Assembly: GCF_001704155.1 (NCBI RefSeq)
Contig: NZ_CP016294.1
Location: 291,001-355,000 of the forward strand
DNA from: Stenotrophomonas rhizophila
Lineage (GTDB): Bacteria; Pseudomonadota; Gammaproteobacteria; Xanthomonadales; Xanthomonadaceae
Direction of reading: 5' to 3'
DNA length: 64,000 nucleotides
Positions 22,918 through 41,495 of the stretch are shown in pieces. The translations under genes and the position numbers were made by a program. Within the stretch, counting starts at the first letter, position 1. Every line of letters starts with the position of its first letter. The notes under the pieces were generated by a model, which did not search any database, was not told the DNA's origin, and was given only the letters and a program-made list of their open reading frames with translations.

Positions 22918-24648
22918 GTGAACGTGGATCAGGGACGTATCGAACGCAGCCGTGCGCTGCGCTGGCCGTTGGCCGTGGCCGTGGCAATCGCCTGCCTGCC
23001 GGCCGCCGCCGTTGCACAGGTGGCCGGGCCGTCAGACCAGGAACTGCTGCGCCAGCAGGAGCGTGAGCGGGTGCTGCGCGAGCAGCAGGAAACCACGCCT
23101 GACGTACGCCTGCAGGCAGCCCCGGAAGAAGCCGTCGGTCGCCTGCCGGTCGACGAATCGCCCTGTTTCACCATCAACCACATCGTGCTCGACGGTGAAC
23201 TGGCCGAACGCTTCGGTTGGGCGCTGAAGGCCGCCGATCCGCGCAACGATCGCGCCACCGGGCGCTGCCTCGGCACCGGTGGCGTGGACATCGTGATGAA
23301 GCGCGTGCAGAACGCGATCATCGCCCGCGGCTTCGTCACCACCCGCATCCTTGCCGCCCCGCAGGACCTGAAGACCGGCACGCTCACGCTGACGGTGGTC
23401 CCAGGGCGCATCCACGCGGTCCGCTTCGCCAGCGGTGAAGGACGCACCCCGGCTCTGTGGAACGCACTGGCGGTCGGCCCCGGCGACCTGCTCAACCTGC
23501 GCGACATCGAACAGGCGCTGGAAAACCTGCAGCGCGTGCCGACCGCCACCGTGGACATCCAGATCGCACCGCCGCAGGAAGGCGAACAGGCCCGGCCCGG
23601 TGAGAGCGACCTGGTCATCAGCTGGAGCCAGCGCGCGCCCGTGCGCCTCAACCTGACCCTGGACGACGCCGGCAGTACCTCCACCGGCAAGCTGCAGGCC
23701 GGTGCCACGGTATCGCTGGACAACCTGGCCGGGATCAGCGACCTGTTCTATTTCAACGCCGGCAAGTCCGTGTTCAACGGCAGCGCACGCGGCACCGACA
23801 GCTGGGCCGCGCACTACAGCGTGCCCATGGGGTGGTGGCTGCTGGGTGCCAACGCCAGCGAGTACGACTACCAGCAGACCGTGGCCGGCGCGTTCGAGAC
23901 GTACGAATACAGCGGCTCCAGCCGCAACGCCGAACTGCGCCTCACCCGCATGCTGTTCCGCAACGCGCGCGCAAAGACCAGCATGCACGCGCGCGGCTGG
24001 TACCGCGAATCGGACAACTTCATCGACGACACCGAAATCCTCGTGCAGCGCCGGCGCATGGCCGGCTGGGAACTCGGGCTCGCCCACCGCCAGTTCATCG
24101 GCAAGGCCACCCTGGACGCCAACCTGGCCTACCGACGTGGTACCGGCGCGTTCGATGCGCTGCACGCACCGGAGGAGGGGTTCGGCGAGGGCACCGCGCG
24201 CGGCAAGGTGGTCACCGCCGATGCGCAGCTCACCGTGCCGATGCAGTGGGGCAGCCAGGCCCTGCGCTACACCGGCAGCTGGCGCGCGCAGTGGAACCGC
24301 TCGCGGCTGGTCCCGCAGGACCGCTTCTCCATCGGCGGCCGCTACACCGTGCGTGGCTTCGACGGTGAAGTCTCGCTCACCGGCGAGCGCGGCTGGCTGC
24401 TGCGCAATGAGCTGGCGTTCGCGCTCGGCGGCGCAGTGGAGAGCTACGTGGCGATCGACCACGGCCAGGTCAGCGGCCCGTCCACCGGATGGCTGCTCGG
24501 CGACCGCCTCACCGGCATGGCGCTGGGCCTGCGCGGTGGCACCCGCCACGTGCAATGGGAAGGCTTCGTGGGCAGCCCGCTGGACAAGCCCGCCGGTTTC
24601 CAGACCGCCTACACCACCTTTGGCATGAATCTCGGCGTCTCGTTCTGA
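22918..24648 (+). CDS. cdiB: Two-partner secretion transporter (CdiB/FhaC/ShlB family)
   Basis: 576 residues from GTG 22918, preceded by AGGGAAG. A signal peptide ends near AAAVAQ. Residues ~85-220 carry two POTRA domains (SPCFTINHIVLDGEL, then GRIHAVRFASGEG). The rest is a 16-stranded outer-membrane barrel, with the conserved VRGF motif at 478-481 followed by LTGERGWLLRNEL, and a C-terminal Phe as expected for barrel assembly. It recognises the TPS domain of CdiA in the periplasm and exports it. cdiA starts 70 bp downstream, so the two form one locus. Confidence 0.93.
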   Translation: MNVDQGRIERSRALRWPLAVAVAIACLPAAAVAQVAGPSDQELLRQQERERVLREQQETTPDVRLQAAPEEAVGRLPVDESPCFTINHIVLDGELAERFGWALKAADPRNDRATGRCLGTGGVDIVMKRVQNAIIARGFVTTRILAAPQDLKTGTLTLTVVPGRIHAVRFASGEGRTPALWNALAVGPGDLLNLRDIEQALENLQRVPTATVDIQIAPPQEGEQARPGESDLVISWSQRAPVRLNLTLDDAGSTSTGKLQAGATVSLDNLAGISDLFYFNAGKSVFNGSARGTDSWAAHYSVPMGWWLLGANASEYDYQQTVAGAFETYEYSGSSRNAELRLTRMLFRNARAKTSMHARGWYRESDNFIDDTEILVQRRRMAGWELGLAHRQFIGKATLDANLAYRRGTGAFDALHAPEEGFGEGTARGKVVTADAQLTVPMQWGSQALRYTGSWRAQWNRSRLVPQDRFSIGGRYTVRGFDGEVSLTGERGWLLRNELAFALGGAVESYVAIDHGQVSGPSTGWLLGDRLTGMALGLRGGTRHVQWEGFVGSPLDKPAGFQTAYTTFGMNLGVSF

Positions 24649-24718
24649 CGTCCGTCGTACGGTACTGCGCACCCTGCCGGTGCGCGCCCTTACCACCGCA
24701 TTGAAAGGAAGCAACGCC

Positions 24719-27700
24719 GTGAATCGAGTCTACCGTCTGGTCTTCAACCGCACGCTGGGTGTCATGCAGGTCGCCTCCGAGCTGGTCACCGCACCGCGCG
24801 GCGGCTGCGACGCGCGCGGCGGCAACACGGTGGCCACGCTGCGCCCGGTGAGCTTCGCCCTGTGGCTGGCGCTGGGCTGGGTGGGCGTGGTGCAGCCACT
24901 CTCGGCGCAGCAGTCACCCAGCGCCGGCCGCATCATCGCCGACCCCAACGCGCCCGCCGACCAGCGCCCCACCGTGGTCAGCTCGGCCAACGGCACCCCG
25001 CAGGTCAACATCACCACGCCCAGTGCGGCGGGTGTCTCGCGCAACCAGTACCAGCAGTTCGACGTTGGCGCGCAGGGCGTGATCCTCAACAACTCGCGTG
25101 GCGATACCCAGACCCAGATCGGCGGTTGGGTGCAGGGCAACCCGTGGCTGGCCACCGGCACCGCGCGCGTCATCCTCAATGAAATCAACAGCAGCAGTCC
25201 CAGCCAGCTCAACGGCTACATCGAAGTGGCCGGCGCCCGCGCGCAGGTGATCATCGCCAATCCGGCCGGCATCCAGATCGACGGCGCCGGCTTCCTCAAC
25301 GCCAGCCGCGTCACCCTGACCACCGGCACGCCCATCGTCAGCAACGGTGCGCTGGAAGGCTACCGGGTTGCCGGGGGCGCCATCCGCATTGCCGGTGCCG
25401 GCCTGGATGCCAGCCGCACCGACTACACCGACATCATCACCCGCTCGCTGCAGGTCAACGCCGGCATCTGGGCCAACCAGCTGCAGGCCAGCCTGGGCAA
25501 CAACGTGGTCAGCGCGGACAACACCGCCGTGACCCCGCAGGCCGCCGACAGCGGCGCCCCGGCGTTCGCCCTGGACGTGGGCGCGCTGGGTGGCATGTAT
25601 GCCAACCGGATCTGGCTGGTCGGCAACGAGCAGGGCGTGGGCATGCGCAACGCCGGCAAGATCGGTGCGCAGGCCGGCGAACTGGTGGTCACCGCCGAAG
25701 GACGGCTGGAAAACACCGGCGCGCTGCACGCCCAGCAGGACACCCGCATCAAAGCCGCAGGCGGCGTGGCCAACGCCGGCACGCTCAGCGCCGAGCGCGA
25801 GCTGCGCGTGGACACCCCCGCCGACATCGACAACAGCGGCGGCACGCTCAACGCACGCCGGCTCGAACTAAACGCCGACGCGCTGCGCAACCGCGCCGGC
25901 AGCATCGAACAGGTGGGCGCGCAGGCGCTGCAGTTGAAGGGGGCCGACGTCCGCAACCTGCAGGGGCAGATCGGCACCGTTGCCACCACCACGCCAGGCG
26001 AAGGCGCCGGCAACACCGGCGGCACCGCTCCGGACAGCGGCAGCACTCCCGGCACCGCCACGGGCATCCCGACGCCCGGCACCGGCACAGGCACCGGCAC
26101 CACCCCGCCGCCCGCCACGACGGTTCCCCTGGCGGCCGGCGTGCTCAACATCGCGCGCACGCTGGACAACGACGGCGGCGCCATCGACGCCACCGGCGTG
26201 CTGCAGCTCGACGCGCGCAGCAGCCTGGACAACAGTGGCGGCACGCTCGGTGTAGACACCCTGAAGGTGCAGGGCCAGGCCCTGCGCAACGTCGGCGGCA
26301 CCCTGGAAGTGCAGGGCGCCACCACCGCCCGGGTAGCCACGCTGGACAACAGCGACGGGCACATGACCCTGGCCCAGGGCGCGGAGCTGCACACGCAGAC
26401 ACTGCTCAACCGGGGCGGCAGCCTGGCGCACGGCGGCAGCGCCGCCAGCGCCTGGACGATCGGCACGCTCGACAACCGCGATGGCAGCATCGCCAGCAAC
26501 GCGGCCAGCTTCGGCTTGGGCATCGGCACCCTGGTCAACACGCGGGGCAGCATCAGCCACGCCGGCAGCGACGGCCTGCGCCTGCGCGCCGATCGCCTGG
26601 ATGGCGTGGGCGGTACCCTCGCCACCGCAGGCGACCTGCTCCTGCAGCTGGGCACCGCCGACCACCGCAACGCGCAGCTGATTGCCAACCAGATCAGCCT
26701 GACCGCCGCGTCCTTCGACAACCGCGGTGGCCGCGTGCTCGCCACCGGGCAGCAGGCCAGCAGCCTGAACGTACAGGGCACCCTGGACAACGGCGACGGC
26801 GGCACCGTGGCCAGCAACGGTGACCTGCAGATCAGCGCAGCGCAACTGGGCAATGCCGGCGGCACCGTGCAGCAGGCCGGCAGCGGAAGCCTGCGCATCG
26901 ATGCGGCCAACCTCCAGGGCCAAGGCGGCAGCATGCTCAGCAACGGCAGCCTGCTGCTGCAGGGCGGCACCACCAACCTGCGCGACGGCACCACCGCTGC
27001 CCAGCGCATCGACATCCATACCAACGACCTGGTCACCGCCGGCGGCTCGCTCACCTCGGCTGGCCCCGATGCGCTGAACCTGCAGGTAAGCCGCACCCTG
27101 GACAACACCGGTGGCCTGCTCGGCAGCAACGGTGCAGTGGCCATCGAGGCCACCACCCTCATCAACAACGGCGGCAAGCTGGTCGCCGCTGGCACCGCGG
27201 CAAGCACGCTGCGCGCCAGCGGCCTGCTGCAGAACCAGGGTGGCACGCTGTCCAGCAATGGCGACCTGCGCATCGACGCCGACGGCCTGCTCAATGCAGG
27301 TGGCAGCATCGATCACGCCGGCGATGGCACCCTGCAGATCACTGCCAGCACCGTGCAAGGGGGCGAAGGCAGCATCGCCAGCAACGGCCTGCTGCAGCTG
27401 CAGGCGCAGGCGCTGGATGTCCGCAAGGGCAGCACCCGCGCACGCCAGATGGACATCCGCGCCGGGTCGCTGGACAACAGCCACGGCACGTTGCTGTCGC
27501 TGGGCGAGCAGGCTCTGCAGCTGAACGTCAGCGGCGCTCTGCTCAACGATGGCGGCACCCTCAGTGCCAACGGTGCACAGCAGATCGACGCGGGCTCGCT
27601 GAGCAACCGCAGCGGCGAGCTCACCTCGGCCGGCACCGCCGACACCCGCATCGTGGTGGCGGGCACCCTGGACAACCACGCCGGCAGCCTAGCCAGCAAT

Positions 27701-30700
27701 GCCGCAGCGCTGCAGTTGCAGGCCGGCACGCTGGTCAACGCCGACGGCGCCATCAGCCACGCCGGCAGCGGCGGGCTGTCGATCACCACCGGCCGCCTGG
27801 ACGGACAGGACGGCCGCATCGGCACCGCCGGCGCGGTATCCCTCAGCGCCGGTGCGGTGGACCATCGCGGCGCCTCGCTGGCCGCCGCGCAGCTCGACCT
27901 CATCGCGCAGTCGCTGGACAACCGGGGCGGCAGCATCGTCGGCACCGGCACCGCCGCCAACACGTTGCAGGTAGCCGACACGCTGGACAACGGTGACGGC
28001 GGCAGCCTGGCCACCAATGGCGACCTGACCATCACGGCCCAGACCCTGGGCAATGCCGGCGGCACGATCCAACAGGCCGGCAGCGGCACGCTCGCCATCG
28101 AGGTGAAGACCCTGCAGGGCACGGCAGGCACGCTGCTCAGCAACGGCGCCCTGCGGTTGGAGGGAGACACCCTCGACCTTGGCAAAGGCACTACCTCGGC
28201 GCAGCAGATTGCCATCGACAGCGAACGCCTGATCACCGGCGGCGGCCAGCTCACCGCGGTGGGCACCGGGGTGCTGCAGGTGAAGGCACGCACCCTGCTG
28301 GACAACAGCGGCGGCATGCTCGGCAGCAATGGTACGGTCGACATCGCCGCCGGCAGCTTCATCAACGATCACGGCAAGCTGATCGCCGCCGGCGAAGCGA
28401 CGTCGAAGATCCGCGTGGCCGATACGCTGGACAACGGCGGCGGTGCCATTTCCGGCAACGGCAGCCTGCATATCGACGCCGCGCTGCTGCGCAATGCGGG
28501 CGGCACGGTGGTCGCCAGCGACGCGCTGCAGCTGCAGGGCGAGGAACTGGACCTGCGCGACGGCGCGGTTGGCGCCACCGATATCAGCGTGCAGGCCGGC
28601 AACCTGGACAACAGCGGGGGCACCCTCAGTTCCACCGGCACCGCCGAGATGCTGCTGCAGGTGCGCGACCGCCTGGGCAACCACGGCGGCACCATCGCCG
28701 CCAACGGCGCCCAGCGCATTGATGCCGGCACGCTGTCCAACCGCGACGGCACACTGAGCTCGGCCGGTACCGCCAACAGCCAGATTACCGTCAGTGGCGA
28801 ATTGGACAATGCGAAGGGCCTGATCGCCAGCAACGCCGCCGCGCTGGCCGTGAATGCCGGGAGCCTGCGCAACGTGGAAGGCACCCTCAACCATGCCGGC
28901 ACCCAGGGCCTCACGTTGGGTACGGGCCAGCTGGATGGCCGCGACGGCACCATCGTCACCGCAGGCGACCTCTCCCTGACCGCCACGGACGTGGACCATC
29001 GCGGTGCCACGCTGCAGGCCGTGCAGATCGCGCTGGATGCCCGCTCCTTCGACAACCGCGGCGGCAAACTGGTGGCCACCGGCACCGGGGCCAACCGCCT
29101 CACCGTTGACGCCACGCTGGACAACGGCGAGCAGGGCGTGATCGCCAGCAATGGTGATCTGACCGTCAACGCAGCGGTGTTCGGCAACGCCGGTGGCACG
29201 GTACAACAGGCCGGCAGCGGCCTGCTCGACATCAACGCTGCCACGCTCAACGGGACAGGTGGCACGCTTGTCAGCAATGGCAGCCTGACCCTGAAGGGCG
29301 ACGACATCGATCTGCGCAACGCCACCACCTCGGCGCAGCGCATCCGCATCGACAGCGGCAACCTGACCACCGCCGGTGGCAAGCTCACCGCGACCAGCAC
29401 CGAGGCGCTGGTGCTGCACGCGCGCGGCCAGCTCGACAACAGCGGCGGCACCGTGGCCAGCAACGGCGCACTGGACCTGCGCGCCGCAAACCTGGTCAAC
29501 GTCGCCGGCACCGTGCAGGCCGCGGGAACCGCCGCCAGCCAGCTCGCCATCGGGCAGGCCTTGGACAACCGCGACGGCAAGGTGCTGGTCAGCGGCGACC
29601 TCGACATCGCGGCGGTAAGCGTGAACAACCAGGGCGGTACCCTGCACAGCGCCGGTGCGCTCAGCGTCGGCGCCGACGGTGTGCTGGACAACAGCAACGC
29701 AGGCCTGATCGCCAGTGGCGGCGACGCATACCTGCGCGCAGGCACGCTGGACAACCGCGCCGGCAGCATCGAGCAGGCCGGCGACGGCCAGCTGCAGATC
29801 GAAACGCAGGCCCTGCACGGCGCCGGCGGCCGCATCGTCAGCAACGGCGCACTGGCGCTGCAGGGCGAAACCCTCGACCTCACTGGCGGCACCACCGCCG
29901 CGCGGGACATCCAGATCACCGCCGGCAGCCTGCAGAACGCAGGCGGCACGCTGAGTGCCACCGGCGAGCAGGCCATGGTCCTGCAGGTGCGCGACGCGCT
30001 CGGCAACAACGGCGGCACCATCGCGGCCAATGGCGCGCAGCAGATCACTGCCGGTTCGTTGTCCAACGTCGACGGCACCCTGAGCTCGGCCGGCAGCGCC
30101 AACACCCGCATCGAGGTGACCGGCCAGCTGGACAACACCCGGGGCACCGTGGCCAGCAACGCCAGCGCCCTGCACCTGCAGGCCGGTAGCCTGGTCAACA
30201 CCGCCGGCAGGATCGCCCAAGCGGGCAACGGTGGCTTGACCCTGCAGACCGGCAGCCTGAGCGGCCAGCAGGGCAGCATCGCCACCGCAGGCGCCTTGAT
30301 CCTGCGCGCGGGGGACGTCGATCACCGTGATGCCACCCTCAGCGCCAGCCAGCTGGACATCGTCGCCACCGGCTTCGACAACCGTGGGGGCACCGTGCTG
30401 TCCGGCGGTAGCGGCGCCAGCACGATTGCGGTGCAGGGCAGCCTGGACAATGGCAACAACGGGACCCTGGCCAGCAATGGCGATCTCCAGATCACCGCGT
30501 CCACGCTGGGCAATGCTGGCGGCACCGTGCAGCAGGCCGGGACCGGCTCGCTGGCAATCAACGCCGGTACGCTCAACGGCCAGGGCGGCAAACTGCTCAG
30601 CAATGGCAGCCTGCACCTGCAGGGCGAAAATACCGACCTGCGCAACGGCACCACCGCCGCGCAGCGCATCACCGTCCAGACCGGCAACCTGACCACGGCC

Positions 30701-33700
30701 GGGGGCAGCCTGACCGCGGCGGGCACGGACGTGCTTGCACTGAACGTACGCGGCCGCCTGGACAACACCGCCGGCACCCTCGCCAGCAACGGCGCGCTGG
30801 ATCTGCACGCCGCCCAGTTCACCAACAACCAGGGTACCGTTCAGGCCGCCGGCACCGGCAGCAGCCAGGTGGCCATCGGCGGTGCGCTGGAGAACCGGAA
30901 CGGACGCATCCTCACCGGCGGCGCTGCCACCGTCACTGCTGCCAGCGTCGACAACCGCGCCGGCATCCTGCACACCGATGGCGCGTCAGCACTGACCCTC
31001 ACCGTCGACGGCCTGCTCGACAACAGCGCGCAGGGCACCATCAACGCGGGCGGCAGCGCCGACATCGATGCGCAGTCGCTGAACAACGCCGCGGGCATCC
31101 TCGCTGCCGGTACGGGGCTGCAGCTCGACACGACCACCCAGCTCAACAATGCTGGCGGCCTGATCCAGGCCGGTACCGCCCTGCAGCTGGGCACGGCCGG
31201 CATGAACAACCAGGCCGGCAGGGTCATTGCCGGCACCGTCGATCTGAACACGCACGGCCAGGCGCTGGACAACCGTGCCGGTACGGTGGCCAGCCTGACC
31301 GGCGTTACCACGCTGCATACCGGCCTGCTGGACAACAGCGGCGGCCTGCTGCAATCGGCCGGCAACCTGCGCATCGACACCGCCGGCCAGGCGCTGCTCA
31401 ACACCAACGCGAACGGCAACGGCATCAACAGCAGCGGCGCGCTGGAAATCGCCAGCGGCACATTCGACAACCGCGCCGGCGCGGTATTTGGCCAGGGCGC
31501 CATCACCGTCAATGCCAGCAGCGTGGACAACTCCGACGGCGGCTCGCTGCAGGGTGCCAACGACCTCACGCTGCGCGCGCAGCAGCTGAACAACGCTGGT
31601 GGCGCCATCAGTGTCGGTCGCAATGCCGACCTACTGCTGCCCGGCGTGCTGGACAACCGCAGCGGGCTGGTGGCTGCCGCCGGCACGCTGACCGTGCAGG
31701 CCGCCAGCGTCGACAACCGCAACACCCTGAGCGGACCCAACGGCCCGGCCCTCGGCCTGCAGGGCAAGCAACTTCTGCTTACCAGCGGCAGCCTGGACAA
31801 CCAGCAGGGCCAGGTGCTGGCCGACAACCTGAAAGTGCAGCTCAGCAACCAGCTCAACAACGCGGGCGGGCTTGTTTCGGCCTCGCAGACTTCCGAGATC
31901 CGCGCCGACAGCATCGCCAACGCCGGCGGTACGCTGGTGGCCGGCACCAGCCAGTTCATCCACACCCGCGAAATCACCGGAGACGGCAAGCTGCTGTCGC
32001 AGGGCGACATGACCCTGGAACTGGGCCAGAGCCACACCAATACCGGCGAGCTGGCCGCCAATGGCACGTTGACCCTCGCCATCCAGGGCAATCTGGACAA
32101 CCTGGGCAAGCTGCAGGGCGCCAACGTCAACATCAGTGCCGGCAACGTCTACAACGCGGCCACCGGCGAAATCAGCTCGGTCGGCCTGACCCGGCTGGTG
32201 GCCGGCGGTGAACTGGTCAACCGCGGTCTGCTCGACGGGCGTACCACGCATATCGACGCGGGCACCCTGACCAACATCGGCACCGGCCGCATCTATGGCG
32301 ATCGCATCGCCATCAATGCCGGCACGCTCAACAATGTCGCCGAGAACGTTGGCGGCGCGCAGCGCTCGGCCACCATTGCCGCGCGCCAGCGCCTGGACCT
32401 GGGCGTGGGCGTGCTGACCAACAGCGGCCAGGGCCTGATCTTCAGCGATGGCGACGCCGTGATCGGCGGCGGCCTGAACGGACTGAACGCGGTGGGCACC
32501 GCGCAGCGCATCGACAACCTCAGCTCCACCATCGAAATCGCCGGCAACCTGGACATCAACGCGCTGGCGGTCAACAACATCCGCGAAAACGTGGTGGTGC
32601 AGAGGCAGACCACGGTGCACGACACCGTGACACTGAACCAGCCGACCTGGTTCAAGAACGGCGACAACGAAGGCAGGCTGCGTGAGACCTCCAACTTCCA
32701 GCCTCTTGAAATCTACTACCTCAACCCGGCCGACATCCTGGAAGACACGGCCTACATCACGCCCGACGGCCAGCAGATCCGCAAGGCGGTCGTACGGCTG
32801 ACCCCCAACACCAGCGCCTACTACTTTGCCCGCGGCGGCCTCTATGGTGCGCGCGGTGAACGTGCGCGCCTGAATGTCCAGGACGGCACGGTGGTGATCT
32901 ACTACGTCGGCCGTGCAGACAACCGCAGCAACCCCGACCAGCTGGGTGCCGGAGCAGAAGATCCGTTCCATGAGCTTTCCAAACCCCAGCCGGGCAGTCC
33001 GGCGTTCCGCTACGAGTCAGACACCTTGGCATACAGCAATGCCTACGGGACGTGCACCACGAACTGCGTGCAGCTGATCACCTACCCGGACTACGACAAT
33101 CCGGACGCGATGCTGATCAACATGCAGCGTCACCCCGAACGCACCAGCGGCAACGAGAAGTACCGCCTGGCCACCCGTACCACCGTGGAAGACGTGGTCG
33201 TTTCGGCCGGTGCCGATGCGGTGATCAACGCGGGTGGGCGCATCAACATCAACACCAATGCACTGCGCAACGAGTACGCCAGCATTGCTGCAGGTGGCAA
33301 CCTGGAGATCCACGGCCTGACCCAGGACGCGTCGGTCATCAATACGGCCCGGAAGCTGGAGCGCACCCACTCCTTCAACAACGTCAGCGTCACCTACGGC
33401 GGCTCATCCAGCCCCTGGAGCGCAGCCCCCATTTCCGAGCAGGTCGGCGTACTGGGCGCCGGCCTCGTCGCCGGTGGCAAGCTCGTCGTCGATGTCGGCA
33501 CGCTGCGAAATGAAAACAACGGCAGCGACGCGCCCAACGTCCGCGACGGCAGCAGCATGGCCAACCTCAACAACGGCGGTCCCGGTGCAGGTTCCGTCGG
33601 TCCGGGTGCCGGCGCGGTACAGGGACCCGGCCAGGCCACCGGCCAGGGCGCCGGCCCGGTGGCCGCACAGGGCCCCGGCGCAGCCACCGCAGCGCAGGGT

Positions 33701-36700
33701 CACAACGGCAGCGCCGTGCAGGGCCCCGGAACGACCGGTGCGCAGTTGGCCGATGCTGCCACGGCGCAGGGTCCCGGCCAGGTCGGCTCGGCCGGGCCCG
33801 GCAGCGGCACCGTCCAGGACGTGAGCGCAACCCAGGCCGCCCAGGCCACCGCCGCCGGCCCGAGCGCCGCGCAGGGCGGCAGCCATGCCGGCAGCGGCAG
33901 CAACGCCGCGCTCGACCGCAAACAGGCCGTGGCCGCCGCCGGAAATGACCCGCACGTGGTGGTGACCACCGCGCCGAACGCCAGCGCCCCCAGCGCCAGC
34001 CTGTTCAACGTGGATGCCAACCGCGGCAGCTACCTGGTCGAAACCGATCCGAAATTTGCCAACTACCGCAGCTGGCTCAGTTCCGATTACCTGCTGCAGC
34101 GCGCCGGCTATGAGCCGTCGCAGACCCAGAAGCGCCTGGGCGATGGCTTCTACGAACAGAAGCTGGTGCGCGAACAGATCGGTGAGCTCACCGGCCGTCG
34201 CTTCCTCGATGGCTACGCCAGCGATGAAGACCAGTACCGCGCGCTGCTGGAAGCCGGTGCCACCGTGGCCGGCGAATGGGGTCTGCGCCCCGGCGTGGCC
34301 CTCACTGCCGAGCAGATGGCACGCCTCACCAGCGACATCGTGTGGCTGGTGGAGCAGGACGTGACCCTGGCCGACGGCTCAACTGCCCGCGCGCTGGTGC
34401 CGCAGGTCTACCTGCGCGTGATGCCGGGCGACCTCGACCACAACGGGGCACTGCTCGCCGGTGCCGACGTGGACATCAAGCTGCGCGGCGACCTGGTCAG
34501 CAACGGCTCCATCGCCGGGCGCCAGTTGGTCAGCATCGACGCCGGCAACATCCGCAACATCGGCGGCGGACAGATCAGCGGTCAGCAGATCGGCCTGAAG
34601 GCCGCCGGCCAAATCGACATCATCGGCAGTACCGTCACCGCCACAGACGTGCTGGCGCTCAAGGCCGGCGGTGACATCACCGTGGCTTCCACCACCCACG
34701 AGTGGCAGGACAAGGGCGATCTGCTGACCCAGCACACCACCACGCTGGACCGCGTGGCCGGCCTGTACGTGACCAACACCGACGGCGCCGGCGTGCTCAG
34801 TGTCAACGCCGGCGGCAACGTGGAACTGCGTGCCGCACAGCTGGCCAACGCCGGTGCCGACGGCCTCACCGCCATCGTGGCGGGGGGCGACATCAATCTG
34901 ACCGCGGTAACCCAGCAGAGCAGCGTCGCACTCACCCACGACAGCGGCAACTTCAACAAGCAGAGCCAGGTCACCCACATCGGCACCACCATCACCGGTG
35001 CCGGCGATGTGGCGCTCCGCGCGGGCAACGATCTGAACCTGGCCGCAGCGAACGTGTCGGCCGCCAATGCGCTGGTGGCGCAGGCGGGGCGTGACATCAA
35101 CAGCATTGCCGTGCTGGACACGCAGAGCATCGACAGCAGCGCCAAAAGCAGGAACCATTCACGCGAGGTCAGCGCGGCTGACGCCTACGTGCTGGGCAAC
35201 CAGCTGAGCGGCGGTGAAGGCGTTGCCCTGCAGGCAGGACGTGACCTGACCCTGCAGGCCACCACGGTGGCCAGCAGCGACGGCGGCGTAGTGCTGTCGG
35301 CCGGTCGCGACGTGACCCTCAGCACCGCGCAGGAGACCCATGACCTGGTGGTGGACGAGTTCACCCGCAAGAAGAAGACACTGTCCACCACGACCACCAC
35401 CACCCACGACCAGAGCTCGACCAGCTATGCCGTAGGTACCACCGTGACTGGCAAGACCGTGGACATCCTTGCGGGCAACAACGTGGGCATCAGCGGCTCC
35501 ACCGTGCTGGCCGACAACGACCTGCGCATCGCCGCTGCGAACAATGTCACCATCGAATCGGCGCAGGACACCTTCAACGAGGCGCACAGCTTCAACCAGA
35601 AGAAGTCCGGCATCACCGGCGGCTTCGCCAACGGCGTCGCGTCGGTGGGCTACAGCAGCGCCCGCAGCAACACCGAAAGCGCGCTGCAGTCCACCACGCA
35701 GGTGGGCTCGGCCGTGGGGTCGATGAACGGCAATGTGCAGATCAGCGCGGGCAACCAGCTGACCCTGGCCGCCTCCGACGTCGCCGCCGGGCAGGACCTG
35801 ACCCTGATCGGCAAGGACATCAACCTGGTCGCGCGCCAGGACACGGTGGACACGCAGAACAGCCAGTCCAGCAAATCCAGCGGCTTCTCGATGGGCGTCA
35901 CTTACGACCCCACCAAGGCCTACCGCAGCGCCCGCGATTCCACCACCGACGGCATGGCCGACAGTGGCTCGACCATGGGCGACATCACCCGCAATGCCGA
36001 AGGCACCGCCGCCGGCGTGCGTGCCGCCACGACGTCCGTAGTGGTGAGTGGGGGCAGCCAGCGTGCGAGCGGCAACCAGACCCACTCCACCAGCGACGCC
36101 CGCGTGGCCCAGCTGAGCGCGGGCGGTGACCTGACCCTGATCGCCAACGGCGGCTCGATCACCAGCCAGGGCGCGCAGATGTCGGCCGAAGGCGACGCCC
36201 TGCTGCTCGCCACCAAGGACATCGTGTTCGGCGTGGCTCACAACACCGAATCCAGTACCAACCAGAGCAGCGGCAAGGGCTGGGGCTTCGCCAACAACAC
36301 CAGCGGCCTGCCGTTCGGCACCAACAACTCGCGCGGTGAGGGCACTGGCCAGAGCGACACCATCACCGGCACCCAGTTGTCGGCGGGCGGTGGCGTGCGC
36401 ATGGCCACCACTGAAGGGGACATCACCCTGACCGCCGCGAACCTTGTCGCAGAGAAAGACGTGACCATATGGGCTGCCGGCAACCTCACCGTGCAGAGCG
36501 GCCAGGACACCGTGCGCAACGCCAACACTGCCGACAGCAAGGCGATCGGCACGGTGCAGATCTCCGACACCGAGAAGTTCGCCGGCTGGCACCGCCAGCA
36601 GCACGAGGACGACAGCGGCATGGTGTCGCAGGTCGCCAGCACCATCGGCAGCCTGGGTGGCAACGTCAACCTGGGCGCCGGCGGCAAGTACACCCAGATC

Positions 36701-39700
36701 GCCAGTAACGTGGTGGCCGCACAGGACGTGAACATCACCGCAGCCGAGATAGAGCTGCTCACCGCCGACGAGACCGGCTACAACTCCCAGAGCGACAAGG
36801 ACCTGAAGATCGGGGTGTTCGCGCGGATCAAGTCGCCCTTCATTGACCTGATCAACAACGTGGATGCAGCACGCCAGTCCGACGGGCGTCTCCAGGCGAT
36901 GCAGGGCATGGCTGCCGGCGCGAATGCCTACCAGGCAGGCAGCGCCATCGCTAGCGCGGCCAAGGGCGCGGGTAGCGGCGCGCTGTTCAGTGCCGAAGCC
37001 GGCATCGGCTTCAAGTCGGCCAGCAGCAGCGCAGATGGCAGCAGTACGGTCTCGCGCGGATCAACCATCCAGGGCGGTCGGAACGTCAACCTGACCAGCA
37101 CCAGTGGCGACATCCACGTGGTGCAAGGCAACCTCAGCGCTGGCAACAAGCTGGCGCTGGACTCCGCGCGCGACATTCTGCTGGAAGCGGGTCAAGCGAA
37201 CCTGCAGAACAGGAGCAAGAGCAACAACGCCGGTGCCGAAGTGGGGGTAGGCGTATCGGTGGGAGCACAAACCGGTGTCTATGTCTACGCGGAAGCCAGT
37301 GTCGGCAGCAGCAAGTCAAATGCCGAAAGCAACACTTGGCAGAACACGACGCTGACCGGCAGCAACATCTCGCTGAAAGCCAAGGGCGACACCACCATGC
37401 GCGGCGCGAGCGCAACCGCCGATCGGATCGACGTCAGGACCGGAGGAACGCTCACCATCGAGTCGCTCCAGGACATCGCCGAAAGCATGTCCAAGGACAG
37501 CCAGGTGGGGGGGCGTGTCCAGGTCTCCATCGGCACGGCGTGGGACGCCAGTGGCTATGCCAGCGCGGCCAAGGCGAACGGCAGTTACAAGGGTGTAGGC
37601 CAGCAGTCAGGGCTGTTCGCCGGTGACGGCGGCTACCACGTCGACGCCGGCCACGTAAATCTGGTGGGCGGTGCCATCGCCAGCACCAATGCGGCCAACA
37701 GCGAACTGAGTGCAGAGACATTCACGTTCACTGATCTCAAGAACGAGATGGATTACCGCGCCAGCTCGGCGAGCATCAGTGGTGGGTTCGGGCACAAGGC
37801 CACGGGCGAAGGCGCCAACCAGAACGCAGCCGGCCAGTTGAAGGACATCGGCAGCAATGTGGCAAACGGCAAATTCGGCAATGTGGAAGGTACCAACTTC
37901 AGCGGTGGCGTGCCGATGACCAGCAACGGCAGCGACAGCTCCAACACCTACGCCACGCTGACCGAGGGCAATATTACGATCGGCGGCAGAAAAGTCACGG
38001 CTGCCGAGCTCGGCGTGAACACCGACGCCGGCAAGGCCCATGAGGCAATCAACGCGCTGCCAGACCTCCAGAAGTTGATGAAGGAACAGCAGGCGATGTC
38101 ATCAGCTGCGGGCACGGTGGTGGCCACCAGCAAGCAGATTGCGGGGGATGTCGCGGCGGCGAAGACCAAGGCGGCGACCGAAGCGTATCTGGCTTCTCTG
38201 CCCAGCAAGGAAGACAGGGACAAGTTCCTTGCGACGAGCCCTGAAGCGCAGCGAGAAATACTCTCCGCGCGTGATGACTACAAGGAGGCGCAGAAGTGGG
38301 CCACAGGCGGGGCGTACGGCCGCGCGCTTGATGCAGTGACCACTGCCATCGTGGGCAGCGTTTCCGGACAGAGCGGCGGACAGGTGGCGTCCAACGCGTT
38401 GGCACCCTACGCAGCGAACTTCATCGGCGGCCAGTTCGATCCGAACCATGGGGACAACCCGGATGCCACGTTGCAGCTCATCTCCCATGCAGTTCTCGGC
38501 GCGCTTCTGGCAGAGGCCAATGGTGGCACCGCTGCAAATGGCGCAGCTGCCGCTGCTGGTGGAGAGCTGGCCGCCAAGTTCATCATCGATCAACTGTACA
38601 AGGGCGACGTTGGAGGGTTGAGCGAACAGGACAAGCAGATGGTCCTTGCGCTCTCCCAGGCCGTGGGGGCGCTGGCCGGCAGCATGGGCGGAAACGGAAT
38701 CGAAGGGGCCGCAGCCGGAGCGAACATTGCCCAGAATTCCGTCGAAAACAACTATCTGTCCGCCAAGGATGTCGAGATACTCAGCGAGAAGTTGAAGCGA
38801 TGCGATGCCAAGGACGATGCATGTCGAAACGCCGTAGTGGCGGAGGCCCAGCAGCGAAGCGATGTCAACAGTGCAAAGCTGAAAGCATGTGCGACGACCC
38901 AGTGCGTTGATGCAATCATGCCAGAGCTGTTCGACGGCGCGCGTCACTTCGGTAAGCTGTACCGCGCGGACAATGCGGATGACAACGAGGAGAAGCTCGC
39001 TTTCGGCGCAATCTCGGATATTGAGACGAAGGGGTTGCTTATCGCGGCGAATATGGCTGCAGGCCTGCCGCAGTTCAATAGCGCCACGACGACCCGTGAG
39101 CAGTTCCTGCGCAACGTAGACGCTTCTGCGTATACGCCAGGCACGCCGGGAACCAAGTTCCAGCAGATCTTTGATGGGTACGAGTGGGCATTCGGGACCA
39201 CTAAGCAGCCCCATGAGTACTCAACTACCTCCAACGCATGCATGGGACAGCCATTCAGTACCTGCGGAACGCCTGCCTCGCAGTTTGATGCGCTGAGGCG
39301 ATATGCCGGGCCCGGCACAGACGGCAAAGGCCTGGCGAGCAATGGCGTGGTCAGCTACCTGTCAATCATGGGCCTTTCTCTGGGATACGTGACTCACCTC
39401 ATCGATCCCAGCACCAGTAGCCTGATCAACATCACTGTTCCCGGTGCTCACGCCCTGGATCCAGGATTCGTCATCCGGCAAATCATTCCGACCGGAAACG
39501 GTGGTTTCAACGTGGAGACCACGGGCTGGGGAACGGGTTCGAGTCCAATGTTCAACTCGAACAGCTGGGCGGATGACCAGGTTTGGGGGCCGAATACAGA
39601 TAAGATCGGCTCTGAGGTCAACTCCTACAAGCTGCCGTGGTTGCCGGGCGCACCGCCCGCCAAGTGCTGGCCGTCCATAATCGATGGAAAGAAAGTTGAG

Positions 39701-39712
39701 GTTTGTCAATGA
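24719..39712 (+). CDS. cdiA: CdiA-type contact-dependent inhibition exoprotein (giant filamentous hemagglutinin)
   Basis: 4997 residues from GTG 24719, preceded by AAAGGAAG. In order: an extended signal peptide (ESPR, MNRVYRLVFNRTLGVMQVAS) with cleavage near residue 63. TPS secretion domain at ~80-260 with the NPAGI motif. FHA-1 repeats at ~320-2600, including kilobase-scale duplications. A non-repetitive Tyr/Pro-containing region at ~2620-2800, where E. coli CdiA has its receptor-binding part. A Gly/Pro/Gln-rich linker at ~2953-3068. The conserved ETDPKF...WLSSDYLL segment near 3106. FHA-2 repeats at ~3230-4340. A pre-toxin domain ending in VENN at 4675-4678, then a 319-residue variable end. 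The 3' end is visibly less GC-rich than the repeats. A membrane protein gene overlaps the stop codon, so CDI rather than simple adhesion is the best reading. Confidence 0.92.
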   Translation: MNRVYRLVFNRTLGVMQVASELVTAPRGGCDARGGNTVATLRPVSFALWLALGWVGVVQPLSAQQSPSAGRIIADPNAPADQRPTVVSSANGTPQVNITTPSAAGVSRNQYQQFDVGAQGVILNNSRGDTQTQIGGWVQGNPWLATGTARVILNEINSSSPSQLNGYIEVAGARAQVIIANPAGIQIDGAGFLNASRVTLTTGTPIVSNGALEGYRVAGGAIRIAGAGLDASRTDYTDIITRSLQVNAGIWANQLQASLGNNVVSADNTAVTPQAADSGAPAFALDVGALGGMYANRIWLVGNEQGVGMRNAGKIGAQAGELVVTAEGRLENTGALHAQQDTRIKAAGGVANAGTLSAERELRVDTPADIDNSGGTLNARRLELNADALRNRAGSIEQVGAQALQLKGADVRNLQGQIGTVATTTPGEGAGNTGGTAPDSGSTPGTATGIPTPGTGTGTGTTPPPATTVPLAAGVLNIARTLDNDGGAIDATGVLQLDARSSLDNSGGTLGVDTLKVQGQALRNVGGTLEVQGATTARVATLDNSDGHMTLAQGAELHTQTLLNRGGSLAHGGSAASAWTIGTLDNRDGSIASNAASFGLGIGTLVNTRGSISHAGSDGLRLRADRLDGVGGTLATAGDLLLQLGTADHRNAQLIANQISLTAASFDNRGGRVLATGQQASSLNVQGTLDNGDGGTVASNGDLQISAAQLGNAGGTVQQAGSGSLRIDAANLQGQGGSMLSNGSLLLQGGTTNLRDGTTAAQRIDIHTNDLVTAGGSLTSAGPDALNLQVSRTLDNTGGLLGSNGAVAIEATTLINNGGKLVAAGTAASTLRASGLLQNQGGTLSSNGDLRIDADGLLNAGGSIDHAGDGTLQITASTVQGGEGSIASNGLLQLQAQALDVRKGSTRARQMDIRAGSLDNSHGTLLSLGEQALQLNVSGALLNDGGTLSANGAQQIDAGSLSNRSGELTSAGTADTRIVVAGTLDNHAGSLASNAAALQLQAGTLVNADGAISHAGSGGLSITTGRLDGQDGRIGTAGAVSLSAGAVDHRGASLAAAQLDLIAQSLDNRGGSIVGTGTAANTLQVADTLDNGDGGSLATNGDLTITAQTLGNAGGTIQQAGSGTLAIEVKTLQGTAGTLLSNGALRLEGDTLDLGKGTTSAQQIAIDSERLITGGGQLTAVGTGVLQVKARTLLDNSGGMLGSNGTVDIAAGSFINDHGKLIAAGEATSKIRVADTLDNGGGAISGNGSLHIDAALLRNAGGTVVASDALQLQGEELDLRDGAVGATDISVQAGNLDNSGGTLSSTGTAEMLLQVRDRLGNHGGTIAANGAQRIDAGTLSNRDGTLSSAGTANSQITVSGELDNAKGLIASNAAALAVNAGSLRNVEGTLNHAGTQGLTLGTGQLDGRDGTIVTAGDLSLTATDVDHRGATLQAVQIALDARSFDNRGGKLVATGTGANRLTVDATLDNGEQGVIASNGDLTVNAAVFGNAGGTVQQAGSGLLDINAATLNGTGGTLVSNGSLTLKGDDIDLRNATTSAQRIRIDSGNLTTAGGKLTATSTEALVLHARGQLDNSGGTVASNGALDLRAANLVNVAGTVQAAGTAASQLAIGQALDNRDGKVLVSGDLDIAAVSVNNQGGTLHSAGALSVGADGVLDNSNAGLIASGGDAYLRAGTLDNRAGSIEQAGDGQLQIETQALHGAGGRIVSNGALALQGETLDLTGGTTAARDIQITAGSLQNAGGTLSATGEQAMVLQVRDALGNNGGTIAANGAQQITAGSLSNVDGTLSSAGSANTRIEVTGQLDNTRGTVASNASALHLQAGSLVNTAGRIAQAGNGGLTLQTGSLSGQQGSIATAGALILRAGDVDHRDATLSASQLDIVATGFDNRGGTVLSGGSGASTIAVQGSLDNGNNGTLASNGDLQITASTLGNAGGTVQQAGTGSLAINAGTLNGQGGKLLSNGSLHLQGENTDLRNGTTAAQRITVQTGNLTTAGGSLTAAGTDVLALNVRGRLDNTAGTLASNGALDLHAAQFTNNQGTVQAAGTGSSQVAIGGALENRNGRILTGGAATVTAASVDNRAGILHTDGASALTLTVDGLLDNSAQGTINAGGSADIDAQSLNNAAGILAAGTGLQLDTTTQLNNAGGLIQAGTALQLGTAGMNNQAGRVIAGTVDLNTHGQALDNRAGTVASLTGVTTLHTGLLDNSGGLLQSAGNLRIDTAGQALLNTNANGNGINSSGALEIASGTFDNRAGAVFGQGAITVNASSVDNSDGGSLQGANDLTLRAQQLNNAGGAISVGRNADLLLPGVLDNRSGLVAAAGTLTVQAASVDNRNTLSGPNGPALGLQGKQLLLTSGSLDNQQGQVLADNLKVQLSNQLNNAGGLVSASQTSEIRADSIANAGGTLVAGTSQFIHTREITGDGKLLSQGDMTLELGQSHTNTGELAANGTLTLAIQGNLDNLGKLQGANVNISAGNVYNAATGEISSVGLTRLVAGGELVNRGLLDGRTTHIDAGTLTNIGTGRIYGDRIAINAGTLNNVAENVGGAQRSATIAARQRLDLGVGVLTNSGQGLIFSDGDAVIGGGLNGLNAVGTAQRIDNLSSTIEIAGNLDINALAVNNIRENVVVQRQTTVHDTVTLNQPTWFKNGDNEGRLRETSNFQPLEIYYLNPADILEDTAYITPDGQQIRKAVVRLTPNTSAYYFARGGLYGARGERARLNVQDGTVVIYYVGRADNRSNPDQLGAGAEDPFHELSKPQPGSPAFRYESDTLAYSNAYGTCTTNCVQLITYPDYDNPDAMLINMQRHPERTSGNEKYRLATRTTVEDVVVSAGADAVINAGGRININTNALRNEYASIAAGGNLEIHGLTQDASVINTARKLERTHSFNNVSVTYGGSSSPWSAAPISEQVGVLGAGLVAGGKLVVDVGTLRNENNGSDAPNVRDGSSMANLNNGGPGAGSVGPGAGAVQGPGQATGQGAGPVAAQGPGAATAAQGHNGSAVQGPGTTGAQLADAATAQGPGQVGSAGPGSGTVQDVSATQAAQATAAGPSAAQGGSHAGSGSNAALDRKQAVAAAGNDPHVVVTTAPNASAPSASLFNVDANRGSYLVETDPKFANYRSWLSSDYLLQRAGYEPSQTQKRLGDGFYEQKLVREQIGELTGRRFLDGYASDEDQYRALLEAGATVAGEWGLRPGVALTAEQMARLTSDIVWLVEQDVTLADGSTARALVPQVYLRVMPGDLDHNGALLAGADVDIKLRGDLVSNGSIAGRQLVSIDAGNIRNIGGGQISGQQIGLKAAGQIDIIGSTVTATDVLALKAGGDITVASTTHEWQDKGDLLTQHTTTLDRVAGLYVTNTDGAGVLSVNAGGNVELRAAQLANAGADGLTAIVAGGDINLTAVTQQSSVALTHDSGNFNKQSQVTHIGTTITGAGDVALRAGNDLNLAAANVSAANALVAQAGRDINSIAVLDTQSIDSSAKSRNHSREVSAADAYVLGNQLSGGEGVALQAGRDLTLQATTVASSDGGVVLSAGRDVTLSTAQETHDLVVDEFTRKKKTLSTTTTTTHDQSSTSYAVGTTVTGKTVDILAGNNVGISGSTVLADNDLRIAAANNVTIESAQDTFNEAHSFNQKKSGITGGFANGVASVGYSSARSNTESALQSTTQVGSAVGSMNGNVQISAGNQLTLAASDVAAGQDLTLIGKDINLVARQDTVDTQNSQSSKSSGFSMGVTYDPTKAYRSARDSTTDGMADSGSTMGDITRNAEGTAAGVRAATTSVVVSGGSQRASGNQTHSTSDARVAQLSAGGDLTLIANGGSITSQGAQMSAEGDALLLATKDIVFGVAHNTESSTNQSSGKGWGFANNTSGLPFGTNNSRGEGTGQSDTITGTQLSAGGGVRMATTEGDITLTAANLVAEKDVTIWAAGNLTVQSGQDTVRNANTADSKAIGTVQISDTEKFAGWHRQQHEDDSGMVSQVASTIGSLGGNVNLGAGGKYTQIASNVVAAQDVNITAAEIELLTADETGYNSQSDKDLKIGVFARIKSPFIDLINNVDAARQSDGRLQAMQGMAAGANAYQAGSAIASAAKGAGSGALFSAEAGIGFKSASSSADGSSTVSRGSTIQGGRNVNLTSTSGDIHVVQGNLSAGNKLALDSARDILLEAGQANLQNRSKSNNAGAEVGVGVSVGAQTGVYVYAEASVGSSKSNAESNTWQNTTLTGSNISLKAKGDTTMRGASATADRIDVRTGGTLTIESLQDIAESMSKDSQVGGRVQVSIGTAWDASGYASAAKANGSYKGVGQQSGLFAGDGGYHVDAGHVNLVGGAIASTNAANSELSAETFTFTDLKNEMDYRASSASISGGFGHKATGEGANQNAAGQLKDIGSNVANGKFGNVEGTNFSGGVPMTSNGSDSSNTYATLTEGNITIGGRKVTAAELGVNTDAGKAHEAINALPDLQKLMKEQQAMSSAAGTVVATSKQIAGDVAAAKTKAATEAYLASLPSKEDRDKFLATSPEAQREILSARDDYKEAQKWATGGAYGRALDAVTTAIVGSVSGQSGGQVASNALAPYAANFIGGQFDPNHGDNPDATLQLISHAVLGALLAEANGGTAANGAAAAAGGELAAKFIIDQLYKGDVGGLSEQDKQMVLALSQAVGALAGSMGGNGIEGAAAGANIAQNSVENNYLSAKDVEILSEKLKRCDAKDDACRNAVVAEAQQRSDVNSAKLKACATTQCVDAIMPELFDGARHFGKLYRADNADDNEEKLAFGAISDIETKGLLIAANMAAGLPQFNSATTTREQFLRNVDASAYTPGTPGTKFQQIFDGYEWAFGTTKQPHEYSTTSNACMGQPFSTCGTPASQFDALRRYAGPGTDGKGLASNGVVSYLSIMGLSLGYVTHLIDPSTSSLINITVPGAHALDPGFVIRQIIPTGNGGFNVETTGWGTGSSPMFNSNSWADDQVWGPNTDKIGSEVNSYKLPWLPGAPPAKCWPSIIDGKKVEVCQ
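26495..31060 (+). repeat. Four ~1.1-1.3 kb internal repeats in cdiA
   Basis: The short FHA repeats are organised in a higher-order unit. The same landmark (AGCAA[CT]GC encoding SNA) occurs at 26495, 27695, 28829 and 30155, and a second landmark (CAA[CT]GC in LGNAGGT or FGNAGGT followed by VQQAG or IQQAG) at 26851, 28051, 29185 and 30511. The spacings for both are 1200, 1134 and 1326 bp, all multiples of three. The copies are diverged but collinear. The end of the fourth copy is approximate. Confidence 0.8.
38741..39709 (+). other. CdiA-CT: VENN motif, entry region and toxin domain
   Basis: Encodes residues 4675-4997. VENN is followed by a helical segment with four Cys (pattern CDAKDDAC then CATTQC), the likely translocation part of a CdiA-CT. 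The terminal toxin core, about residues 4854-4975, runs from SQFDALRRY through PGAHALDPGFVIRQI to VETTGWGTG and VWGPNTDKIGSEV. I cannot assign it to a known nuclease, deaminase, lipase or pore family; no GxSxG or HNH motif is present. A moderately hydrophobic stretch (VVSYLSIMGLSLGYV) lies inside it. The paired immunity protein is membrane-embedded, which hints at action at the inner membrane. Confidence 0.7.
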
Positions 39713-40158
39713 GTGCTTGGAACCTGCCTGCCAGGATGCTTGCAGTGCCACTGAGCACTGCAGTGGCCAGTTGCATGTTCTTTCTGATCCCTGTCATGTC
39801 CTCGAGCGGAACGTCTGTGCATGGTGCACTGCCTGTGTTGGGCATTTTCCTGATCATAGGTGCCATCATTGGCTTGATCGTGGGATGTCCACTTGTCTTG
39901 CTGGTCGACGGCATTTTCCCCAGATGGCCCCCCAGGTACATCGTTTTTGGAGCTGCCGGGGCTTTGGTGGGCTGGCTAGTCCTGGAGGGTGGGTTCGCGC
40001 GCGGTGCCTGGGAAGCAATTTGGTCCAATCCGAAATTCTGGGTTGACTGGGCACCCAGGCGACTCATCCTCTTCTCGCTCATCGGCGTAATGAGCGGCCT
40101 TCTTTACACCGCGTTTGTCTGGTTCATTGATCGCGCAATCCCTCGTGACACCAGGTAG
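39709..40158 (+). CDS. cdiI: Candidate CdiI immunity protein, four-helix membrane protein
   Basis: 149 residues. ATG 39709 overlaps the cdiA stop (ATGA), the tightest possible coupling; a TTG two codons earlier is less likely. Four predicted membrane helices lie at about residues 10-28, 40-65, 77-95 and 116-136, with a short charged C-terminus (DRAIPRDTR). No family is recognised. Position, overlap and lower GC equal to the CdiA-CT identify it as the cognate immunity protein. Multi-helix CdiI proteins are known to protect against pore-forming or membrane-acting CdiA-CTs, so the same is inferred here. The gene symbol is by position only. Confidence 0.75.
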   Translation: MSAWNLPARMLAVPLSTAVASCMFFLIPVMSSSGTSVHGALPVLGIFLIIGAIIGLIVGCPLVLLVDGIFPRWPPRYIVFGAAGALVGWLVLEGGFARGAWEAIWSNPKFWVDWAPRRLILFSLIGVMSGLLYTAFVWFIDRAIPRDTR

Positions 40159-40175
40159 CTCGTAGAATGCGCCTT

Positions 40176-40250
40176 GCGCAGCCGCTGGCCACGTGGCTGC
40201 CCTCCCCGATCCAAAACGTGCGCAACCCGGTGAGCATCGTGTTGCACTAC
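40176..40250 (+). pseudogene. Diverged fragment of the downstream amidase gene
   Basis: The translation QPLATWLPSPIQNVRNPVSI continues with VLHY and matches 18 of 24 residues of the amidase encoded at 40758 (its residues ~27-50), with the nucleotide match around 85 percent by eye. An ATG at 40167 opens a 67-codon frame, but similarity stops after 40250 and the metal-binding His pair is degraded (HY instead of HH). The signal-peptide part is missing. It is a remnant, probably left by recombination between loci that carry this amidase behind cdiI. Confidence 0.75.
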
Positions 40251-40293: not shown

Positions 40294-40590
40294 ATGAAGA
40301 GCCTGATCAACATCGTCTACTACGTCGGTTGGATCGTTTGCGCGGCGCTGTTCCATGCGGTGGCCTATAACAGATACACGTCTGGAGCCCTCGGCCTGTT
40401 TGACGTCTACGATCTGAACCCGGAGCGTGCGCTGCAGGTTGTTCAGGCAGGCGTGGTGGTGCTGTTGATCCAGACAATGGCGATCATCATCAGGATCACC
40501 GATTGGAGGAGGGCGCGAATCCTTGAGATTGCACTGGCCCTCCTTGCATGGCTGCCATTCCTCTACAACCTGTCGTTCGTTCGGGGTTGA
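40294..40590 (+). CDS. Small membrane protein, possible orphan immunity protein
   Basis: 98 residues with three hydrophobic segments (about residues 4-24, 48-68 and 75-93). No family recognised and only a weak ribosome binding site. It sits behind an amidase gene fragment and before the intact amidase gene, where displaced CDI cassettes are expected to leave orphan immunity genes. No matching toxin remnant is seen, so the role is a guess from size, topology and place. The 167 bp after it hold no other gene that I can see. Confidence 0.5.
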   Translation: MKSLINIVYYVGWIVCAALFHAVAYNRYTSGALGLFDVYDLNPERALQVVQAGVVVLLIQTMAIIIRITDWRRARILEIALALLAWLPFLYNLSFVRG

Positions 40591-40757
40591 GAAGGAAGAA
40601 AGTTCAGGGCCACGGGGAACGCACGGCGTCGTTCATCACCCGCGCAGGCACGTGGACACCGAATCTGTGCGGGTGAGACTTCGCGATCCAGGACTCGCAT
40701 CCTCGTCGTGAGGCCAGGACCCGCGCAACCCGCTCTCGAATCAAGCACAATCGGGTG

Positions 40758-41495
40758 ATGCGCCAAGTCCGCCACCCGCTCGTGCTGCTCGCCACCCTCC
40801 TGCTTGCCGCGTGCGCCAGCACCGACGTGCGCAGCCCGCTCGCCACGTGGGTGCCTTCGCCAAACCACAACGTGCGCAACCCGGTCATCATCGTGCTGCA
40901 CCACACGGACCAGGACAGCGTGCAACAGAGCCTGTACACCCTGCGTACCGCCAACAGCGGTGGCAAGGTCAGTGCGCATTACCTGGTGGGCTCGGATGGC
41001 CGCCTCTACCAGCTGGTGGCCGACAACCGCCGTGCCTGGCATGCCGGCGGCGGCCGCTGGGGCACCATCACCGACCTCAACTCCGCGTCGATCGGCATCG
41101 AGATCGACAACGACGGCAGCAGTCCATTTGCCGCGGACCAGATCGCCGCGTTGATCCGCCTGCTGGACGATCTGTGCACCCGTCTGAACATCCCGCGCAC
41201 CCAGATCATCGCCCACGCCGATCTGGCACCGGCCCGCAAGCAGGACCCCAGCCGCTACTTCCCGTGGCAGCAGCTGGCCGAAGCAGGTTTCGGCGTCTGG
41301 CCCCGCGCCAGTGACGGCCCGGCGCCGGAGGGCTTCGACCCGTGGCTGGCCCTGCAGGCGTTCGGCTACCCGCTTGACGACCGCGCCGCCGCCGCCGGCG
41401 CCTTCCACCGCCGTTTCCGTGGCCGCGACGACCTGCCGCCCACGCTCGACGTCGATGACGCCCGCATCCTGCATTCGCTGCTCCTGCAGCGGTAG
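40758..41495 (+). CDS. AmpD/AmiD-like N-acetylmuramoyl-L-alanine amidase, lipoprotein
   Basis: 245 residues from ATG 40758. LLLAACAST is a lipobox, so the enzyme is probably anchored in the outer membrane facing the periplasm. The amidase_2 domain shows the zinc ligands: His of VLHHTD, His of IIAHADLAP and Asp of KQDPSRY. The last ~60 residues resemble a peptidoglycan-binding helix bundle (FDPWLALQAFGYPL). It cleaves the bond between muramic acid and the stem peptide; periplasmic AmpD homologues affect AmpC-type beta-lactamase induction in related bacteria. Its stop codon TAG is part of a GTAG palindrome. mltA follows. Confidence 0.88.
   Translation: MRQVRHPLVLLATLLLAACASTDVRSPLATWVPSPNHNVRNPVIIVLHHTDQDSVQQSLYTLRTANSGGKVSAHYLVGSDGRLYQLVADNRRAWHAGGGRWGTITDLNSASIGIEIDNDGSSPFAADQIAALIRLLDDLCTRLNIPRTQIIAHADLAPARKQDPSRYFPWQQLAEAGFGVWPRASDGPAPEGFDPWLALQAFGYPLDDRAAAAGAFHRRFRGRDDLPPTLDVDDARILHSLLLQR

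Follow-up and report, generated by a model that had tools for sequence, protein, structure and literature searches.

What does the variable end of a very large CdiA protein do when the gene that overlaps its stop codon encodes a protein with four predicted membrane segments, and does such a tail belong to any family of toxins? CDI is a weapon delivered by one bacterium into a neighbour with which it is in contact. The window, by which we mean the whole 64,000-nucleotide stretch that was analysed, lies on a Stenotrophomonas chromosome of 4.2 Mb assembled as one contig, and it carries the following features:

22918..24648, + strand: cdiB, outer-membrane transporter of the two-partner system (Pfam ShlB, E 2.6e-103; POTRA_3; POTRA_2)
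24680..39712, + strand: cdiA, an ORF of 5010 codons from the first GTG, with ESPR, TPS, haemagglutinin repeats and PT-VENN
38612..38761, + strand: PT-VENN pre-toxin domain (Pfam PF04829, E 6.9e-12)
38753..39376, + strand: region between VENN and the toxin core
39410..39616, + strand: predicted toxin core, common to RHS-type proteins
39709..40158, + strand: cdiI, putative immunity protein of 149 aa, with four membrane segments predicted
40175..40250, + strand: copy of a 5′ piece of the downstream amidase gene (other copy at 40828-40904; 65 of 77 aligned columns identical)
40294..40590, + strand: 98-aa membrane protein with three segments
40755..41495, + strand: Amidase_2 gene bounding the locus (Pfam PF01510, E 4e-34)

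By Pfam the CdiB/CdiA two-partner pair of the window is complete, with ShlB and POTRA domains in CdiB and ESPR, TPS, Fil_haemagg, Fil_haemagg_2 and PT-VENN in CdiA. The cdiA ORF starts with the GTG at 24680, 13 codons upstream of the start used in a preliminary description made from the sequence, and ends at the TGA at 39710-39712. The anatomy given in that description was borne out: VENN is encoded at 38741-38752 and is followed by a variable tail of 319 residues; the partner ORF has 149 codons and begins with an ATG at 39709, overlapping the cdiA stop by four bases (ATGA, 39709-39712); and GC content drops in the tail (0.573) and the partner gene (0.567), compared with 0.682 in the cdiA body. 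Among segments tested at 50-base steps, the 1418-base segment at 38751 ties for the lowest GC content, and 1.3% of segments have a GC content equal to or lower than that of the 972-base tail alone. Within the 64 kb, the 972-base stretch of lowest GC content (0.557) is at the left end (151-1122), outside the CDI tail.

Upstream of VENN, four other CdiA proteins from Stenotrophomonas (L054, L060, L063 and L064) share 36-41% identity with that of the window, whereas downstream of VENN comparison with the same four gave only low local scores (35-39). This break in identity at VENN indicates that the tail is an exchangeable module. Two further loci gave comparable values on both sides of VENN, with 57% identity before and 64% after in L023, and 62% before and 66% after in L022.

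The preliminary description could not place the toxin in any family, and for the libraries searched that remains so. Beyond PT-VENN, searches with the tail gave no accepted Pfam or NCBIfam match and no believable PDB match. None of 15 members of the core family matched Pfam at E 0.1, the NCBIfam matches were limited to three models, each hit by a single member (best E 0.024), none of four proteins matched PADLOC, and PHROGs had no match for P0001 or P0002. L-asparaginase I (E 0.008) and VtrC (E 0.041) appeared as PDB profile matches, but both were weak and differed between profiles, and we rejected them.

The tail is not a singleton, however. A single-sequence search with the window tail matched 4 of 297 family genomes, its own included (L005 at E 3.8e-6), and in whole-genome searches the relatives, on RHS-type proteins, covered the last ~100 residues of the tail. 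Profile searches matched 4 of 200 order genomes (the window's own, L009, L010, and L011, the last judged chance) and 13 of 197 genomes of a sister family, with L040 a repeat of L009, L050 a fragment, and L049 and L052 put down to chance; an RHS form, L021, came from the same-genus profile search. L007, L008, L011, L013, L049 and L052 were rejected as relatives because they lack the motif in a plausible gene context. We kept 14 RHS-type loci (L005, L009, L010, L021, L041-L048, L050 and L051), in 12 of which the RHS tip is visible by eye, the exceptions being L009 and L050; NCBIfam Rhs_assc_core matched two of the three tested, L005 with 32.3 bits and L010 with 26.9, both under the cut-off of 32.5. 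Plasmids and viral contigs yielded no relative, and the phylum samples (3 of 398 and 1 of 170) and class sample (2 of 369) yielded only the window's own genome or rows judged chance. At the search sensitivity used, the family thus looks concentrated in the order.

What the two kinds of carrier have in common is a core of ~70 residues with the motif NxT...H...GxV.R...GxG...W, which is also C-terminal on RHS-type proteins of related genera. Separate profiles of the CDI and RHS cores align over 66 columns with a probability of 97.1% and E 6.4e-11, the CDI profile being shallow (Neff 1.5). The core strings PGAHALDPG...VWGPNTDKI fall at residues 4908-4963 in the numbering of the preliminary description, inside the span of about 4854-4975 proposed there. 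We conclude that the toxin is best explained as belonging to a polymorphic-toxin family that has no name yet and that is carried by both CDI and RHS-type proteins. With this, a CdiA tail that could not be placed becomes a defined family that can be searched for; it has a motif, occurs on two kinds of carrier and recurs with a membrane-protein partner.

Across 15 members, N, T, G, V, G, G and W are invariant and R is nearly so; besides Gly, Val and Trp, the invariant residues are the polar Asn and Thr only. The conserved His is missing in L045 and L051, and GEG is changed to GTG in the CDI group and in L047. Together with the small number of invariant polar residues, these changes speak against a simple enzyme, and the lack of any invariant charged or His residue argues against a classical one.

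Within the genus, the core profile matched 9 of 91 genomes, one of which has the RHS form (L021), leaving eight of CDI type, and the immunity profile matched 8 of 91. Both the CDI-type core and the immunity protein are present in 7 of 91 genomes (hypergeometric P 7.8e-9, uncorrected for relatedness). In one genome (G1242) there is only a short toxin fragment, with no immunity match, and another (G1219) has two immunity genes and no toxin-core match. Since the two co-occur in seven of eight genomes each way, the toxin-immunity pair appears real, in support of the CdiA-CT/CdiI pair proposed earlier.

Long versions of the tail are few. The region from VENN to the core, which we infer is probably an entry or processing part, was found in 2 of 91 genus genomes, the window's own included, and in Xanthomonas sp. 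AmX2 (L003/L023). In an S. rhizophila copy (L017/L022), a TAG lies in frame shortly past the VENN region, at L022:521-523, and two ORFs resemble the immunity gene; the match to the first of them begins only at position 28 of the model. The remaining six copies in the genus consist of short core pieces in open frames of 72-142 aa; one of the six contains an in-frame TAG, and in five of these six loci an open immunity gene lies 3′ of the core piece. An amidase-like ORF lies downstream in four of six genome-contig loci (L024-L027), and in L038 the immunity gene stands alone, directly before the amidase gene. We conclude that the genus loci show the orphan-module pattern of CDI loci; retention of immunity while the toxin decays fits selection for protection.

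These broken copies, along with the lack of a library match to any known toxin, could be taken to mean that the tail is a decaying or structural element rather than a working toxin, and that the membrane gene beside it is unrelated. In the window, however, the copy is open, and the toxin end and the partner both vary like coding DNA, with codon-position differences of 39/29/99 for the toxin end compared with L023 and 53/27/83 for the partner compared with L038; moreover, immunity genes remain open beside broken toxin copies, and once without any copy, before the amidase gene. We therefore regard a non-toxin tail as very improbable. On the same codon pattern we set aside the possibility that the partner ORF is not a gene.

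The duplicated 5′ piece of the amidase gene (40175-40250 and 40828-40904) is likely a recombination scar of module insertion. The 98-aa ORF between the two copies is 65% identical to L060:1513-1803, a protein encoded directly 3′ of a different CdiA, and its family occurs in 12 of 91 genus genomes. The resemblance makes it most likely an orphan immunity gene, and we conclude that it is probably that of another CdiA-CT. The small ORFs for membrane proteins that lie close to the amidase gene in Stenotrophomonas can thus be explained as probable orphan immunity genes.

A Kyte-Doolittle scan of the window's CdiI placed membrane segments at residues 11-29, 48-66, 78-96 and 119-137, in agreement with the four helices first described; P0002 and its relatives in L023 and L024 each have four hydropathy segments. 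A match of the immunity protein to DUF2070 (E 0.15) was put down to composition. On the RHS side, the gene directly downstream of the core encodes a protein with two to four hydropathy segments in 14 of 14 kept loci: four in nine, three in four (L041, L046, L048 and L050) and two in one (L047). L049 and L052 had been dropped before this count; with them it would be 14 of 16, no multi-segment neighbour being listed for either. At least three segments in 13 of 14 loci corresponds to a binomial P of 9e-9 at an assumed background of 0.2, an indicative value given that the loci are related; among greedy ORFs of the window, 2 of 45 have at least three segments. With five of 14 partners under four segments, a four-helix rule is not strict, and alignment of the CDI immunity family with the RHS one (hhalign probability 13%, E 0.0022) falls short of showing homology. 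On both carriers, a membrane protein of several segments thus recurs directly 3′ of the core, and is likely the antidote.

Four of eight RHS-type proteins examined by pattern and by eye (L005, L010, L021 and L041) have a signal-peptide-like N-terminal stretch, ending in AHA, AHA, ASA or AQA just before the RHS tip. Such N-termini would place the RHS-type toxin in the periplasm. All four are short proteins made up of the signal-like start, the RHS tip and the core, and are followed by a membrane protein of three to four segments; L005 and L021 have an additional upstream ORF that is similar by eye. In L043:907-2088, a shortened core and a four-segment membrane protein lie within one ORF.

The occurrence of the core on two kinds of carrier, next to membrane partners of several sequence families, suggests that the inner membrane or the periplasm is where the toxin encounters its target. 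The reading we prefer, with confidence only slightly above even, is that of a contact-delivered toxin whose site of action is the inner membrane or the periplasm and which is neutralised in the membrane. On contact, the tail would be released near VENN, and its N-terminal part would deliver the final ~100 residues to the target cell's inner membrane. There the polar, possibly beta-rich domain would act at the membrane or in the periplasm, perhaps by binding a membrane protein, or on a substrate that is lipid-linked or lies in the membrane. CdiI, with its four segments, would bind the toxin or shield its target within the membrane. A narrower version, in which the family is a non-helical membrane-targeting one that is borne by CdiA and by short Sec-exported RHS-tip proteins and is countered by multi-helix, typically four-helix, antidotes, is possible but doubtful. 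Counting against a membrane site of action, many CDI toxins whose activity has been characterised work in the cytoplasm (PMC9086364).

In a different account, the toxin is a cytoplasmic enzyme and the membrane-bound immunity protein blocks its entry at the inner membrane. Nucleases make up the majority of characterised CDI toxins (PMC9086364), two-helix transmembrane immunity proteins may prevent uptake according to Zhang et al. 2012 (PMC3482391), and His, Arg and Glu/Thr are conserved in most members of the core family. Nevertheless, the core has no family match, the partner is multi-segment on both carriers, whose entry routes would differ, and some RHS-type forms look Sec-exported, all of which makes this account improbable.

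If the toxin does act at the inner membrane, it might do so by forming a pore or as an ionophore, in the manner of CDI ionophores or pore-forming colicins: it would insert into the membrane and abolish its potential, with CdiI blocking the pore. Known CDI ionophores comprise CdiA-CT EC93 and six E. coli groups and, like the window module, combine a CdiA-CT that follows VENN with a membrane-embedded CdiI (PMC11630599). Polytopic immunity does go with pore-formers, including the two-helix CdiI of these ionophores (PMC11630599) and the predicted four-transmembrane immunity protein TspI1b, which matches the window's partner in predicted segment number and is paired with TspE1b, a pyocin-like pore-former of the P. 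aeruginosa T6SS (PMC9846239). The hydropathy of the tail, moreover, peaks near the threshold (1.53 at residues 203-221, compared with 1.6). However, no tail segment reaches that threshold, and the conserved core, which is polar and rich in Gly, Asn and Thr, lies after the near-threshold stretch. TspE1b is a predicted pore-forming alpha-helical bundle (PMC9846239), whereas the window tail has no membrane helix by hydropathy. CDI ionophores form a five-helix bundle with a glycine zipper and are paired with a two-helix CdiI of 72-100 aa (PMC11630599), whereas the 323-aa tail contains no GxxxGxxxG zipper and the window's CdiI has 149 aa and four segments. An EC93-type ionophore was set aside on these differences, and a pore-former of any kind seems unlikely. 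Two AF2 models of the tail, both of low confidence (mean pLDDT 42.0 and 40.6), have strands at tail residues 242-250 and 256-265.

Returning to the preferred reading, the attack on the inner membrane put forward in the preliminary description is plausible, the argument for it being the membrane-type partner. In those features that could be tested, the module does not match the membrane-acting CDI toxins of the best-known class. If true, a non-helical family would represent a way of attacking the inner membrane distinct from that of helical-bundle ionophores, and the family offers a cheap test of how a polar domain of ~100 residues might act there.

Much of the setting is already known. CDI modules of the S. 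maltophilia complex likewise combine a CdiB/CdiA carrier with a low-GC CT/CdiI module, the length of the window CdiA falls within their Type II-1 range of 4574-5174 aa, and immunity genes without a cognate cdiA occur there as they do among the window's relatives (PMC11893273); CDI pairs, cdiA-less immunity genes and low-GC CT modules in Stenotrophomonas are therefore not new. The toxins in that work are grouped as tRNases, rRNases, DNases, deaminases, peptidases and Unknown/Other, and the parts of its text covered here mention neither transmembrane immunity proteins nor strain D457 (PMC11893273). Modular C-terminal toxins common to T5SS and RHS carriers were described by Zhang et al. 2012, whose transmembrane immunity proteins include the two-helix Imm-CdiI, Imm17 and the TM or secreted partners of L,D-peptidases, and no motif of a known Ntox or Tox family fits the core in three of the seven parts of the table section of that paper (PMC3482391). 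The part that appears new is the toxin-immunity family. We found no description of the core in the literature, of which mainly open-access main texts were covered, so that its absence is not proven.

A second type of CdiA tail was seen in the four Stenotrophomonas proteins compared above. L054, L060, L063 and L064 carry HxxxDxxxH (H[AL][FL]GDSFAHV), a motif listed for Tox-HET-C in the table of Zhang et al. 2012 (PMC3482391). Pfam matches on these CdiA proteins were PT-VENN and weak DUF matches only, and since no Pfam toxin model accompanies the motif, Tox-HET-C is only a lead. A three-segment membrane protein is encoded directly after this tail in L054, L060 and L063, and ~200 bases further on in L064.
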